Part shown: piece after piece, positions 9,753 through 62,362 of the stretch | Layout of the letters: each line of letters opens with the position of its first letter | How positions within the stretch are numbered: position 1 is the first letter of the stretch | Assembly: GCA_938049385.1 (NCBI GenBank) | Contig: CALIBQ010000001.1 | Coordinates: forward strand, 1 to 62,482 | Length of the DNA stretch: 62,482 nt | Reading direction: 5' to 3' | Source: an uncultured Anaerolineae bacterium | GTDB lineage: Bacteria > Chloroflexota > Anaerolineae > JACIWP01 | Translations under genes and position numbers: made by a program | The notes under the pieces: model-generated | Told to the model about the DNA's origin: nothing | Database searches by the model: none | What the model saw: only the letters and a program-made list of their open reading frames with translations

Positions 9753-9772
9753 CATGCCTTCCTCAAGATTGT

Positions 9773-9864
9773 GGCCTGGCGACTGAAGCCACGGTAGCAA
9801 CTGGGAAGCCTGCCTATGCAGGCTTCGCGAAGTCGGCGCAGGCCCGCAATTTCAACTGCCAGGC
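9773..9864 (+). repeat. Interspersed palindromic repeat R1, copy 2
   Basis: Same element as 1041-1129, slightly diverged (GACTGAAGCCAC instead of GGCTGAAGCCGC). It sits directly upstream of the LTD gene start and ahead of the ferredoxin promoter. Confidence 0.8.
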
Positions 9865-9919
9865 GATGAGCCTTTTCCACACCCTCTTCCTCATTATGCA
9901 ATAATGCGTCAAATTCCTA

Positions 9920-14963: not shown

Positions 14964-15584
14964 CTAGCGCCTGGGGACCGCGTCGCGCACGGCGCAGGGG
15001 ATAGACTCCGGCGCGATCTCATGCCGCGGCCGGCATTCCCGCACCAACTGCGGCGCGTGCAGGATCACATCCACCCCAATCTGAGCGCCGGTTCGGTAAA
15101 TATGAGCGCAGGAGCCGTCGGGCGTCTTCGGCACCCAGGTCTCCCGCAGGAATTTGCACTCGTTGTGCCCCAGCTCCTCCTGGAAGCGCCGATGCAGTTC
15201 ATAGCACAGCTCGTCTACACAGGTCAGGTCATCGTCCGGTGAGATGCGGCCGTACAGCAGGCTGGTGCACATGATGCAGGCGGCCAGCGCCCCGCAGAGA
15301 TGGCGCACCTGGACGATGGGCACGCCGTCATCACCCACTTCTTGATAGCCGGCCGCCACGCCGGCCAGCAGTTTGGTCATATCCACGTTCGGGTCCAGCC
15401 GATGGCTCCCACCGCCGCCGTGAAACCCGGTGACCGCCTTCACCATCCTGGGGTCCGTGATCTGCAGTACCTCATTGATGGCCAGAAACACCGATTCACT
15501 GCAGTGAAAGCCTTTCTCCTTGTACTCCAGCGCTTTCCGGCCGGCCAGCTCTGCCTTCTCCCGAATGGCCTCTTCGCTCCACAT
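14964..15584 (-). CDS. C_GCAxxG_C_C-family redox protein
   Basis: 206 residues with the family pattern: HCSES near residue 29, then a Gly-rich segment (GFHGGGGS), LCGALAACIM and conserved late cysteines. The family is a presumed metal- or cluster-binding redox protein found beside oxidoreductases in anaerobes; no function is established. Ribosome binding site GGAGGGCACC. It converges on the AOR 1 operon, which may be only positional. Confidence 0.78.
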   Translation of the reverse strand: MWSEEAIREKAELAGRKALEYKEKGFHCSESVFLAINEVLQITDPRMVKAVTGFHGGGGSHRLDPNVDMTKLLAGVAAGYQEVGDDGVPIVQVRHLCGALAACIMCTSLLYGRISPDDDLTCVDELCYELHRRFQEELGHNECKFLRETWVPKTPDGSCAHIYRTGAQIGVDVILHAPQLVRECRPRHEIAPESIPCAVRDAVPRR

Positions 15585-42084: not shown

Positions 42085-42208
42085 AGCCATCACCTCCCTG
42101 TCATGACAGGATGTCGTGATGCATCACGTACGTTCCTGCAATTTGCTATTATAGCACTCTTGACAGGAATTCAGCAAATTCTCAGGCTGAGGGTGTTGAA
42201 AAGTTCGC

Positions 42209-42317
42209 GGCCTGGCGGCTGAAGCCGCGGCAACAACTGCGAAGCCTGCGGAGGCAGGCTTTGCGAAGTCGGCCTACGCCAACTTCGCAAACACAGCCGT
42301 AGTTTCAACTGCCAGGC
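42209..42317 (+). repeat. Interspersed palindromic repeat R1, copy 3
   Basis: Same element as 1041-1129, preceded at 42192-42201 by GGTGTTGAAA, the same end sequence seen at the R2 borders. It lies in the 318-base gap 42085-42402 ahead of the selenoprotein promoter. Confidence 0.85.
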
Positions 42318-42330
42318 TCTGTCAGCATTC

Positions 42331-42358
42331 TTGACAATCTATCCCACTGCGGTATAAC
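42331..42358 (+). promoter_or_regulatory. Promoter of the thioredoxin-like selenoprotein gene
   Basis: TTGACA at 42331-42336 and TATAAC at 42353-42358, 16-base spacer, 44 bases before the ATG. Confidence 0.75.
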
Positions 42359-42402
42359 ACGCGCAGTGATGCCGGCACAATCCGTTGTTCCCAGGAGGAA
42401 GT

Positions 42403-42726
42403 ATGCTTCACATTCGCGTCCTGCACTCGCCCAATTGCGGCTCCACACCGAAAGCGATGGAAAATCTGCACCAGGTGCTGGAGGAGCTGGGCGTCCAGGC
42501 AGAGATTCAGGAAATCGTGATGGATGCGGACATGGACCCAGCGGAGTGGCGCTACTTCGGCTCCCCCACCATCCGCGTCAATGGGGTGGATGTGGACCCG
42601 TACGCCGCACAGCGCAGCGATTACGCGCGGGGCTGAAGGACGTATCTCACCGGCGAGGGGTTCGCCGGCTGGCCTGACAAAGAGATGCTGCGCGCCGCCA
42701 TCCTGCGGGCGCTGGCACGCGAGTGA
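42403..42726 (+). CDS. Thioredoxin-like selenoprotein, DF-family-like (in-frame UGA)
   Basis: Read normally this frame stops at UGA 42634-42636 after 77 codons, but the same frame continues for 29 clearly coding codons to UGA at 42724-42726, giving 107 residues with Sec78. The body is a small thioredoxin-like fold (SPNCGSTPK near Cys12, then YFGSPTIRVNGVDVDP). In the DF (seleno)protein/thiol family a Cys or Sec sits before R-x-Y at exactly this place; here it reads G-U-R-T-Y. A SECIS-like hairpin begins 13 bases after the UGA. Ribosome binding site AGGAGG and a strong promoter are present. A plain nonsense mutation is the alternative. Role unknown, presumably thiol redox. Confidence 0.78.
42650..42668 (+). 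promoter_or_regulatory. SECIS-like hairpin of the DF-family-like gene
   Basis: Stem CCGGCGA (42650-42656)/TCGCCGG (42662-42668) with loop GGGGT. The loop starts with G and lies 20 bases after the UGA, within the spacing known for bacterial SECIS elements (about 16-37). Confidence 0.6.
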
Positions 42727-42755
42727 ACGCATGACCGCCGGCCGCGCCGCACGCC

Positions 42756-45700
42756 TCAGGCGGCGTTGGCCGGCTCCACATCCCTGCCTTCCAGGCGCAA
42801 GGATATACTGCGCGATGTCCCATCCTCCCCCATGGTAATCCCGTAAATCGTGTCCGCCGCCTCCACCGTGCCGCGGTTGTGGGTGATGACGATGAACTGT
42901 GTCTGGCCCGAAAGGCTTTTCAGCGCTTCGCGGAAGCGCCCCACATTGGCCTCGTCCAGCATGGCGTCCACCTCGTCCAGGAAGCAGAACGGCGTCGGGC
43001 TGACCTTCAGAATGGCGAAAATCAGCGCCGCGGCGGTCAGCGCCCTCTCGCCGCCGGAAAGCAGGGCCAGGCTCTGCTGGCGTTTGCCCGGCGGCTGGGC
43101 GATAATATCCACACCGGTGATGCTCACGTTATCAGGCTCGGTGAGCACCAGGCGGGCGGAACCTCCTCCAAAGAGGGCGGAGAAGAACTGCTTGAACTGG
43201 GCGTTGACCGCCCGGAAGGTCTGCATGAAATCAGCCTGCATGATCTCGTCCAGCTCGCTGATGACCGCCCGCAGGGAGCGCGAGGCCTGCTCCAGGTCGG
43301 CCACCTGTTCTGAGAGGAAGGTGTAGCGCTGGAGCAGAGAGGAATATTCCTCCGGGGCTTCAGGGTTGACGGCACCCAGCCGGCGAATCTGCCCGCGCAA
43401 CTGCCTGATCTCCTCCTCCAGCCCCTCGGGCAGTTCCGGCACCACCGGCAGGGCGGAGACCAGCGATTCCAATGGGAGCGGGGCCTGCTCCGCAAGCCCC
43501 TCTACCGGCTCTATCTCCACCAGGCCCAGTTCTTCCTCGATTTGCCGATGCAGGGCACGCACATGCTCTTCTTTCCGCTGGCATTCCAGGCTGGCCTGGG
43601 CATAAAGGCTCTCCGCATCATGGAGCTGGCGGCGCCGGCGTTCTTCCTCGGCCATCAGGGCTTGCAGGGAGCGCTCCAGCTCCACCAGGCGCCGTTCTAT
43701 GGGCTGGACCTGGGCGTCGATATCCGCCAGGTTTGCCTGCAGTGCCTGCCGGCGCGCGTCCGCAGTCCGCCGGCGCTCTTCCAACTCCTGCATCTGTGTC
43801 TCCAGCTCGTGCAGGCGGCGTTCCTTGCTCTCGATCTGCTGTTGCGCCTGGGACAGCATGGCCTGGAAGTTCCGCAGGAGCTGAAGCTGGCTGTCCCGTC
43901 GGGAAGCGGCGGAGGACAGCGCGGCACGCAGGGCATTCAGTTGGTTGACCAGTTCTTCATCCATAATGCCGGCGCGCGCCTCTTCCAACTGCTGAAGCTG
44001 TTCATCCAGAGCCTGCTGTCGCGCCGCAAGCTGGCCGGCCTCCTGCTCAAGCTGGGCACGCCGGGCGGTAACCGCTTCCACTTCCTTGCGCGACTGCGCG
44101 ATCAGGCGCTGATGCCATTCGATTTCCTGGGAAAGCCGGTCCTGCTGACGGGAAAGCTCCGCAATGCGCGTTTCCAGGCCCGACTGGTGGCGCTGACGTT
44201 CGGCCAGCTCACGCTCCAGGTCCTGGGCGGTTTGGCGGTAGCGCGCTTCGGCGCGCTGGCTTTCCTCCAGCTCGCGCATCAGCGAGGCTACCTGCGCTTC
44301 GGCGCCGGCAATCTGCCCGGGCAGTTCGCGCCATTCGCGCTCGCGGGCCAGCATGCCAGCCTGGCGTTCGCCGGCGCCGGCCCCGCCGGTGACGCTCCCG
44401 CTAGAGCGGACAATTTCCCCGGCGCGCGTGACAATGGTGAAACTGCCGCGCAGGCGCTCCATCACGCGGCGGGCGGTCTTCAGGTCTTCCACCACCAGGG
44501 TGCGGTTTAGGAGCAGGTCTACCGCCGGCCGTAAGCGGGCATCATACTGCACGAGCTGTGAGGCCAGGCCGATAACGCCCGGTTCGGCCGGCGCCTCAAG
44601 GGCGGCCGGCGGCCGCAGGGTGTCCAGCGGCAGGAAAGTGGCCCGGCCGCCTTGCACGCGCTTCAGGTGTTCGATGGCCTTCTCGGCCACCTCCCAGCGC
44701 TCGACGATGAGGTCCTGCAGGTGACTGCCAAGGGCGGTTTCCAGCGCCCGTTCCAGCTCCGCCGGCACAGTAATATGGGATGCCACCGGTCCAAGCACGC
44801 CGACGATGCTCGCCTGCATGACCGAGCGCACGCCGGCGTAAAACCCGTCCATCTCCTCACGGGTGCGCGCTAGAATATCCCGTCGGGCACGCAGGCGGGT
44901 CAACTGTCCGCGCGCCTCGTCCAGGCGCTTTTCAATGGTCGGGCGCTGTCGGCGCACCTCCTCCGCTTTCCCCAGGGCAGATTGGCGCTGGTTCTGCAGG
45001 ACCGCTGTGGCCTCCCGCCATGTTTCCAGCTCCTGGCGCAGGGCGCGCAGTTCGCGCTCCCGCTGGCCAATCTCCTCCTGACAGGCAACAATGTGCTCCT
45101 GATGCCGGCGCTGTTCCTCCTGCAGTTCCTGCCGGCGCTCATCCAGTTGGGTCATGCGGTTGCGGCAGTCCGCCAGCCGCGTGGCGACCTGGAATGCTTC
45201 GTCGCGCGCGGCCGAAAGGGCGGCGCTCAGGCGCTGTCGCTCTTGCTGGAGGGCTTGGACCTTCTGCTCGACTTCTGCGGCGGCGGAGAGCTGGGATTGA
45301 TATTCCTGTTCCAGCGCCTGTAGTTCCTCCTGGGCGCCGGCAGTGCGCTTCTGATGTTCTGCGGCGCTGGCCTGCAGGGCAATGATGTCCTGCAGGAGGG
45401 CCTCACGCTGGACCTCCATCTGGCGCCGGCGCTCCTCCCAGACAGCCAGCTCGCGCTCCAGGGATTCCAGCTCCGCGTGCAGGCGGGCGCTGTCTCCATG
45501 CCGCTGGCCCAACTGCTCGCGCAGAGCCGCCTGCTCCTGACGCAGAGCGTCTATCTGCCCCTCGATTTCCTGGAGCGCCTGCTGACGCGCATCCCGCAGT
45601 TCGGCCTGCCGGCGGAGCGCTTCCTGCGCCTGGTGCAGTGCCTGTTCGGCCAAAAACCACTGATGGCCGTACCAGACGCGCAGTAATCCATGCAGTCGGT

Positions 45701-48302: not shown

Positions 48303-48567
48303 TGTTGAAAAAGCCTGGCATTTGAAACTACAGGCCTGCACCGACTTCGCGAAGCCTGCACAGACAGGCTTCGCAGTTGTTGCCGCGGCTTCAGCCGCCA
48401 GGCCGCTCTTCCACCCTTGCACTTCGCCTGGCGCTTCAACGCCAGGCTTACGGTGCCAAGCCCCTGCGGGGCTTCGCTTCCTCAGCCGGCGGCTTCCAGC
48501 CGGCAAACTTCCCCGTGTAGGGGGATGGGATGTTTTGGACCATAGTCCCCAACAGTACGTTTCAACA
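48303..48567. mobile_element. MITE-like composite of R1 and R2 repeats
   Basis: Flanked by TGTTGAAA (48303-48310) and TTTCAACA (48560-48567), an 8-base terminal inverted repeat, and containing an inverted R1 copy (48313-48404) and an R2 copy (48421-48569). No coding capacity. Target-site duplication not obvious. Confidence 0.45.
48313..48404 (-). repeat. Interspersed palindromic repeat R1, copy 4
   Basis: Inverted copy of the element at 1041-1129, keeping the GCCTGGC/GCCAGGC ends and the GCGAAGCCTG/CAGGCTTCGC hairpin. Confidence 0.85.
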
Positions 48568-52830: not shown

Positions 52831-52895
52831 GTCTTTCAGCGCCCTCAGCAAAAAGGGTGCTGCAGAAGTCCAAACATACAATCTGTGGAAGAGCA

Positions 52896-53004
52896 GCCTG
52901 GCGGCTTAAGTCGCGGCAACAACTGCGAAGCCTGCCTGTACAGGCTTCGCGAAGTCGGCGTAGGTCGACTTCGCGGGTGCAGTCGCAGTTTCAACTGCTA
53001 GGCG
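52896..53004 (+). repeat. Interspersed palindromic repeat R1, copy 5
   Basis: Full-length R1 with ends GCCTGGCGGC and TTTCAACTGCTAGGC and the GCGAAGCCTGC/CAGGCTTCGC hairpin. Confidence 0.85.
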
Positions 53005-60390: not shown

Positions 60391-60828
60391 TTACCCAGCA
60401 TCTGCACCGATAACGGTAACATGAACGGTAATGACCGCTTCAGGCGAGGCCGGGTCATTGGTGCGGATGTAGACTTTGCGGAAGAAAGAGCCCTCTTCAC
60501 TGCCGTGCGCAGTCGGGTCAAACGTGATGGTGACTTGTGCGGTCCCGCCGGCAGGAAGCCGGCCGACATTGACAGCCGCAGTAGTACATCCGCAGGATGT
60601 ACTGACACCCAGAATCTCCAGCCAACCGCCGCCGGCATTTTGGATTGTCACTGTGCGTGACACAGGTTGGGTATTGGGAATGGTGCCCATATCTATCTCT
60701 GTGGTTTCCAGGCGAATGGTCGGCGTTCCTGGCGGGACAGCGCTACAACCGCCAGATATCAGGAGCAATGTTACCAGGAAAAGGAGCGTCAATGCCGCCG
60801 GATGCTTCACAGTATTTTCCACAACCAT
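60391..60828 (-). CDS. DUF1573 lipoprotein
   Basis: 145 residues. N-terminal hydrophobic segment with lipobox ISGGC and a single DUF1573 domain with STSCGCTTAAV, related to the domain at 58477-59100. Start overlaps the CcdA gene stop by 22 bases, so it belongs to that operon. The role is unknown. The domain's two conserved cysteines would be reduced by the neighbouring redox proteins (inference). Confidence 0.82.
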   Translation of the reverse strand: MVVENTVKHPAALTLLFLVTLLLISGGCSAVPPGTPTIRLETTEIDMGTIPNTQPVSRTVTIQNAGGGWLEILGVSTSCGCTTAAVNVGRLPAGGTAQVTITFDPTAHGSEEGSFFRKVYIRTNDPASPEAVITVHVTVIGADAG

Positions 60829-61532
60829 ATGGGAATGAAGGTATTCATCAGCCGGGTCAGCTCACTGAACTTATCCAGGACAAGTAAGATGCCCATTCCC
60901 ATCACGAACGCGCCGCTGGCAAGCTCCAACCATCGTCCGCGCCGGCGCAACCAGCTCAACCAGGCTAGTGCTTTCTCCCACATTAACGCGGCGGTAAGGA
61001 AGGGCACTGCCAAACCCAGGGCATAGGCGAGGATCAGCAGTAATCCCTGGCCTGGGGTGGTAAGTGCCAGCGTAATCGCTGTTCCCAACAGCGGGCCGAT
61101 ACACGGCGTCCACCCCAGAGCAAATGCCAGCCCGATCAGCATAGATCTCGTAACGCCTACCGGCATGCCCACTCCCCAATCCCAGCGCAAGGAGCGGTTG
61201 AGCATGGGCAGATGAAGCACTCGCGCTGTGTGGAGACCAAAGAAAATCAAGATAATGCCTCCCAGCCTTGCGATCCAGCTTTCATACTGCTGTAATGTGC
61301 TGGCCAGGAAAGAGCTTGGCAAGCCGAAAATGATGGTGAAGCCGGCAGAGAATGCGCTTACAAAGACCAGCGCATGCTGAAATGTCCGCCAGCGGTCCGG
61401 CACACCTTCGGCGAGCTGGCACCCCGAGAGGTAGCCCAGGTAGGCCGGCACCAGCGCCAGCACACACGGCGACAAGAATGAAAGCAGACCCGCGAGAAAG
61501 GCCAAAGGCAGAGCAGGGATGTTCTCCACCAT
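60807..61532 (-). CDS. ccdA: CcdA-family cytochrome c biogenesis/thiol transporter
   Basis: 241 residues, six membrane helices with the two family cysteines in LSPCVLAL and GWTPCIGP. It moves electrons from cytoplasmic thioredoxin across the membrane to reduce extracytoplasmic disulfides, for cytochrome c assembly or to keep DsbA/TlpA-like proteins reduced. Five bases after the DsbA-like selenoprotein gene and overlapping the DUF1573 lipoprotein gene, so all three are one transcript. Confidence 0.9.
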   Translation of the reverse strand: MVENIPALPLAFLAGLLSFLSPCVLALVPAYLGYLSGCQLAEGVPDRWRTFQHALVFVSAFSAGFTIIFGLPSSFLASTLQQYESWIARLGGIILIFFGLHTARVLHLPMLNRSLRWDWGVGMPVGVTRSMLIGLAFALGWTPCIGPLLGTAITLALTTPGQGLLLILAYALGLAVPFLTAALMWEKALAWLSWLRRRGRWLELASGAFVMGMGILLVLDKFSELTRLMNTFIPIWLWKIL

Positions 61533-61537
61533 TGCCG

Positions 61538-62326
61538 TCAGGGCCTGTTCGAAAGCTCTGCCTCGATCAGTGTCTGGAAGATCTCAAACGGCTGCGCGCC
61601 CATGACCGGCCGGCCGTTTACCAGGAACGCCGGCGTGCCGCTGATGCCAAGCGAGCGCGCGAAAGCGGTGTCCGCCTGCACCTGGGAGGCGTATTTGCCA
61701 GAATCCAGGCAGGCGGCAAAGGCTTCAACATCCATCCCAAGCTCTCCCGCAAACCCCTTCAGGTTTTCCTTGCTGAAAGCGCCCTGATTTTCACCCTTCT
61801 GACGGGCATATAAGAGGTCATGGTAATCCCAGAAGCGGCCCTGGTCCGCGGCGCATTCGCTGGCCTCCGCCGCCCACTGCGATTCGGGACCCAGGAATGC
61901 CATACTGAAGTACCCCCAGCGGACTTTGCCGGCCTGTACATACGTCCCATCTATCTGGCGCCACGCGCCAGCGGCAAAACGCCCGCAGAAGGGTCACTGG
62001 AAATCGCCGAATTCTACCACCGTAACGGGGGCATCCGCTGCCCCGCGGAAATGGCGGGTCGCTCCCACGACGACAGACATGAGGTTCACGCGGGCACTGT
62101 CCGCTGAGGCTGTAACGGTGGGGGCAGTAGGTGTCGTTGGGGAAGCCGCGGCCGGCGCCGATGGTGGAATTTCCCGTGCAGGAGAACGGCTTCCGAGGTA
62201 TGGGCCGGCGAACAATCCGATGCCGAATCCCACCAGCAGGCCGACTGCCAAGAGTGCCGGCACATGCCAGCCTCCCGGTCGGCCGCTCTGCTTTGCCCTG
62301 TTGGCATTCTCGGGGTGACTTTGCAT
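61538..62326 (-). CDS. DsbA-like thiol-disulfide selenoprotein with U-P-F-C active site (in-frame UGA)
   Basis: 262 residues when UGA at plus 61994-61996 is read as selenocysteine (Sec111). Before it the frame encodes a membrane anchor (about 25-45), a Pro/Ala/Thr linker, and VTVVEFGDFQ, the standard lead-in to the DsbA active site. After it comes PFCGRFAAGAW and the complete DsbA thioredoxin/helical domain ending GTPAFLVNGRPV. The Cys of C-P-x-C is thus replaced by U. A SECIS-like hairpin follows 22 bases later. GAGGAGC precedes the ATG at 62324-62326. The ORFs on either side of UGA are the same frame, so no frameshift is needed. A nonsense mutation is the alternative. Confidence 0.83.
61955..61971 (-). 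promoter_or_regulatory. SECIS-like hairpin of the DsbA-like gene
   Basis: On the minus strand CTGGCGC (61971-61965), loop GTG, GCGCCAG (61961-61955). The loop begins with G and lies 29 bases after the UGA, within the range of bacterial SECIS elements. Confidence 0.55.
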
Positions 62327-62362
62327 GGATATGCTCCTCATACTAGTACTTCACCACAATAA

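Follow-up and report, generated by a model that had tools for sequence, protein, structure and literature searches.

The window analysed here is a stretch of 62,482 nucleotides from an uncultured Anaerolineae bacterium and contains a small DF family gene that starts with the ATG at 42403 and carries an in-frame UGA as its codon 78 (Table 1). Ordinary ORF calling with the standard code closes this frame at 42636, i.e. after residue 77, exactly where an earlier note on this DNA had expected automatic callers to cut the protein. The next in-frame stop past codon 78 is the UGA at 42724-42726, giving a protein of 107 amino acids in which the residue at the internal UGA stands in the context G-U-R-T-Y (U78-R79-T80-Y81). 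The coordinates of that note were all right.

Table 1. Positions of the DF family gene and of its associated elements in the window.
Feature	Position	Strand	Details
DF family gene, predicted selenoprotein	42403..42726	+	107 aa plus UGA stop; NF049942 E 1.2e-29; syntenic orthologue
UGA codon 78, predicted selenocysteine	42634..42636	+	Cys in all Cys-form homologues
Sigma-70-like promoter TTGACA-16 nt-TATAAC	42331..42358	+	sole match in window; kept in congeners
Ribosome-binding site AGGAGG	42393..42398	+	from sequence; 4 nt before ATG; kept in L002 and L020
Codon for Cys12, single N-terminal redox Cys	42436..42438	+	invariant 54/54
Gly53-Ser54-Pro55	42559..42567	+	invariant 54/54
bSECIS-like hairpin CCGGCGA-GGGGT-TCGCCGG	42650..42668	+	7-bp stem; loop GGGGT 42657-42661

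The promoter and ribosome-binding site had been described as good from the single sequence, and both are kept in the congeners L002 and L020. The combination TTGACA-16-TATAAC occurs once in the window compared to 0 expected occurrences, and in both congeners the two hexamers and the 16-nt spacing are unchanged although the spacer itself has diverged. A consensus promoter scanner reported no promoter for the DF gene, solely because it requires the -10 box to end in T. Just upstream of the promoter, at 42206-42317, lies a copy of a dispersed repeat of about 110 bp with a GGCGGCTGAAGCCGCGGCAACAACTGCGAAG core, which is partly self-complementary. It occurs in at least five places in the window, with further copies near 1038-1128, 9765-9886, 48306-48406 and 52893-53003, and on other contigs of the genome; it is absent from the place upstream of the DF promoter in L002 and L020. 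The DF gene is flanked upstream by a gene for an FmdB-like zinc ribbon (named by eye) and downstream by the convergent smc gene, and these neighbours are uninformative on function. Between the convergent DF and smc genes a GC-rich inverted repeat, GCCGGCCGCGCCGC...GGCGGCGTTGGCCGGC, is found at 42737-42774. It is kept in the congeners with a changed loop and may be a terminator common to both genes.

The assignment to the DF family made in the earlier note is supported by the NCBIfam model NF049942, "DF family (seleno)protein", which matches the product with 102.2 bits (E 1.2e-29, cut-off 70 bits). The match extends over residues 4-99 and profile positions 1-96 of 96, i.e. through the UGA column. 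As a scan of the genome contigs yielded one relative only, homologues were gathered by family search. The DF gene scores over the cut-off in 30 of the 249 genomes sampled from the class and in 37/400 genomes of the phylum. We aligned 54 non-redundant homologues from the phylum, with L002 and L019, which are one and the same stretch, entering as a single row. The column of the UGA contains Cys in 48 of these sequences, UGA in six, and no other residue. The six Sec forms are the window gene, L002, L020, L009, L014 and L018; the L002 orthologue is syntenic, 89% identical and has the same UGA. The codon is kept in all three genomes of the genus examined and in another three that belong to two further families, and the Sec form occurs in three Anaerolineae families. 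Invariant in all 54 homologues are Cys12, Gly53-Ser54-Pro55, Gly61, Cys/Sec78, Arg79 and Pro91. Residue 78 is always followed by Arg and then, in 50 of the 54, by x-Tyr, so the in-frame UGA does fall at the Cys/Sec position before R-x-Y, as first noticed in the single sequence. The comparison that the earlier note had named as able to overturn its reading was run: homologues do extend past this UGA, with Cys or Sec aligned to it. As judged from these sequences, the gene very probably encodes a DF protein that contains Sec and has a redox role.

The fold of the DF protein is thioredoxin-like. A sequence search of the PDB matches the archaeal thioredoxin 1nho (E 0.0018). Pfam DUF2703 (PF10865) is found marginally, with 24.6 bits compared to a gathering threshold of 23.6, over residues 16-71 only; Thioredoxin_3 (PF13192) gives a weak match below its cut-off (E 6e-4), and TIGR00411 also matched. 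An AlphaFold model built from two sequences only (pLDDT 70, pTM 0.66) shows the element order strand-helix-strand...strand-strand-helix, and in Foldseek it is closest to SelW-like and thioredoxin structures, with weak matches throughout (E 3e-3 and worse). Residues 68-89 have pLDDT below 50, and the model is unreliable around Sec78. Pro55 appears to occupy the position of the cis-Pro loop of thioredoxins. A CxxC motif after the first strand is absent; here the sequence is Cys12-Gly-Ser-Thr, and other members have C-P-S-H/W/Y or C-A-N-T. Neither a CxxU motif in the DF protein nor a SelW family match in Pfam or NCBIfam was found.

The family conserves two redox residues only, Cys12 and residue 78. 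Cys12 is expected where the first helix begins and Sec78 past the C-terminal strands, and we give about even chances to the proposal that the two form a reversible selenenyl-sulfide or disulfide. The DF protein is probably a cytosolic thiol/selenol oxidoreductase.

Gene neighbourhoods were compared over flanks of roughly 1.5 kb, which at some loci were shortened by the end of the contig, and the neighbours were grouped by single-linkage clustering at E 1e-5. In 22 of the 54 DF loci the gene that follows on the same strand belongs to one redoxin cluster, and the representative tested from this cluster matches AhpC-TSA (2e-20). Given that a redoxin gene often follows directly on a Cys-form DF gene, an AhpC/TSA-type redoxin may be the substrate or partner, an idea we put forward tentatively. 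The downstream redoxin gene is missing at the window locus and at all Sec-form loci, and the search of the window's own genome found a weak homologue of this neighbour only and no strong one; the idea may therefore not apply to the Sec forms. One of the Sec-form loci, L018, has a gene for a rubredoxin/flavoprotein reductase 12 nt upstream of DF; its product combines two rubredoxin-like domains, a pyridine nucleotide-disulfide oxidoreductase domain and a rubredoxin-reductase C-terminal domain. The neighbours of DF thus hint that it relays electrons between a reductase and a protein resembling thiol peroxidases. A broader proposal, which we consider possible but doubtful, is that DF represents a distinct thioredoxin-fold redox class in which CxxC is replaced by an N-terminal Cys and a Cys or Sec 66 residues later, and which serves an AhpC/TSA-type redoxin as reductant or takes electrons from rubredoxin reductase.

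It is unlikely that, instead of acting as a general thiol oxidoreductase, the Sec-containing DF protein uses Cys12 and Sec78 to bind or handle metals or metalloids (arsenic, mercury, copper). Such a role would fit the P-type ATPase gene that, at five Cys-form loci, lies upstream on the same strand and ends no more than about 60 nt before the DF match, and it would agree with reports on the weakly related DUF2703, which has been described from a cluster for arsenic resistance (PMC6514093) and as a fusion with ArsD (PMC3091736). However, most DF loci have no metal gene nearby, a redoxin gene is found next to DF much more often (22 loci), and the reductase gene at L018 fits electron transfer.

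A coding character of the stretch past the UGA had been suggested from the window alone and is seen in the comparison with congeners, where the codons past the UGA have a dN of 0.06 and a dS of 0.22 (small counts), while those before it have 0.06 and 0.71. The 29 downstream codons are still homologous to the family profile. This pattern, though based on small counts, points to purifying selection on the downstream codons. The stretch from the UGA to the end of the hairpin is the slowest-evolving part of the gene in the congener comparison, with 2 of 42 nt changed compared to 34 of 225 before the UGA (small counts). If the UGA were an ordinary stop, at which the standard code indeed ends an ORF, the gene would encode a 77-residue truncated thioredoxin domain or be in decay. 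This is highly improbable, as the UGA is kept in six genomes of three families, the downstream codons follow the family profile with Arg79 and Pro91 kept and dN well below dS, and a decaying gene would not retain one UGA exactly at the invariant Cys column of the family.

The GC-rich hairpin that the earlier note had placed 20 bases after the UGA is indeed there, with exactly 20 nt between the codon and the GGGGT loop. As an argument from a single sequence it is weak, since an equal or better bSECIS-type hairpin follows 51 of the 1709 TGA triplets (3.0%) in this GC-rich window and 2.1% of random positions. The comparative evidence is strong. According to the bacterial SECIS model the hairpin lies 16-37 nt after the UGA and has an apical loop of 3-9 nt whose first or second base is G (PMC13188914), which agrees with the DF hairpin and with those of all other Sec forms. 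In the six Sec forms a stem of 7-8 bp with a loop of 3-5 nt and a G in its first two bases is located 16-21 nt from the UGA. Their hairpin energies range from -9.2 to -12.2 kcal/mol, compared to 0 to -6.2 at the same place in 24 Cys forms tested, none of which has a hairpin of the Sec type. The two Sec clades carry unrelated hairpin sequences at the same place, CCGGCGA-GGGGT/AGGGT-TCGCCGG and GGGGCAT-CGGGC-ATGCCCY. When the whole 63 nt past the UGA are folded the minimum-energy structures differ among the congeners, and it is the local hairpin that recurs consistently.

The genome (3.37 Mb, 98% complete) encodes selA, selB and selD, all over their cut-offs, and a single tRNA-Sec with the anticodon TCA (tRNA-Sec(UCA)) on contig C25. 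Other matches of the tRNA-Sec model in this genome score far below that on C25, and the two next best are tRNA-Ser. The selD gene (L050, G000:C46:4855-5790) contains one in-frame UGA inside the coding match, a feature common to many SelD proteins, and its product is probably itself a selenoprotein. Since Sec decoding is common across the class, with selA over the cut-off in 207/249 genomes, the co-occurrence of DF and Sec decoding (selB is present in 30/30 tested DF genomes) is uninformative; the machinery is needed but not telling. That the UGA is read as another amino acid, through reassignment or unspecific read-through, would equally leave the frame open past the codon but can be practically discounted, because UGA normally terminates many genes here including the DF gene and smc, the genome has a complete Sec pathway and a selD with its own in-frame UGA, and all Cys-form homologues have Cys aligned with the codon. 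Decoding of codon 78 by SelB and tRNA-Sec, aided by the hairpin 20 nt downstream, is a strongly supported prediction.

A tree of 54 rows and 95 columns, for which the UGA residue was masked, groups the six Sec forms in one clade (support 94/90) nested among Cys forms. With 95 columns this support is moderate. Two independent gains of Sec were considered and rejected, all Sec forms falling into this one moderately supported clade. Following Cys12 the Sec forms have C-A/G-x-T and the Cys forms mostly C-P-S. The tree would most simply be read as a single change from Cys to Sec within the phylum, or as a single transfer of a Sec form.

The earlier note had called the DF protein the second selenoprotein of the window, which agrees with a DsbG-like UxxC selenoprotein gene at the other end. 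This DsbG/DsbA-like thioredoxin gene (61538-62341, minus strand) encodes about 267 aa with a hydrophobic N-terminal stretch and contains an in-frame UGA in the motif FGDFQ-U-PFC. The product matches NF041057 (Rcas_1661 family thioredoxin-like (seleno)lipoprotein) with E 4e-45, under the cut-off with 154 of 190 bits, and the gene is followed by a CcdA-like gene (named by eye) at 60807-61532. At 14964-15584 on the minus strand we noticed by eye a putative redox protein of the C-GCAxxG-C-C kind (FHCSESVFLAINE...), a Cys form with no in-frame UGA.

DF is already known as a selenoprotein family, published in 2025 and modelled by NCBI, and the present gene is an extension of it. In the deep-Sep study of 2025, "hypothetical protein DF" of Desulfosediminicola flagellatus is a predicted selenoprotein that has Cys homologues but none containing TGA (PMC12013277), and a 2026 review lists DF / DF_fam_seleno with NF049942 (PMC13188914). 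New here are the Sec forms in Chloroflexota, their two hairpin types and the neighbour data. Reported so far from one genome, the selenoprotein is thereby extended to a supported Sec lineage of a second phylum, and a "hypothetical" family gains functional hints from two redox residues that never vary, a redoxin gene as frequent neighbour and, for one Sec form, an adjacent rubredoxin-reductase gene.

The DF protein described here and that of Desulfosediminicola belong to the same curated family and share Sec at the Cys column of the family and a SECIS-like hairpin past the UGA; they differ in that the latter is reported from one genome, whereas the Chloroflexota forms come from three families with two types of hairpin. 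Sec.1 and Sec.2 are thioredoxin-like selenoproteins of PF13192 with CxU and UxC motifs (PMC13188914). Like DF they are small and have a thioredoxin fold, and PF13192 matches DF weakly (E 6e-4, below cut-off), but their Sec sits in a compact CxU or UxC whereas that of DF follows a single N-terminal Cys by 66 residues. SelW-like proteins of the Rdx family provide the best fold matches of the DF model, although weak ones (mouse SelW 2npb, E 3.2e-3); SelW has a CxxU motif, while DF has no sequence-family match to SelW. DUF2703 (PF10865) shares the thioredoxin fold, but its marginal match stops short of the Sec region, and the Rhodococcus DUF2703 protein contains a CXXC motif (PMC6514093) that DF lacks.
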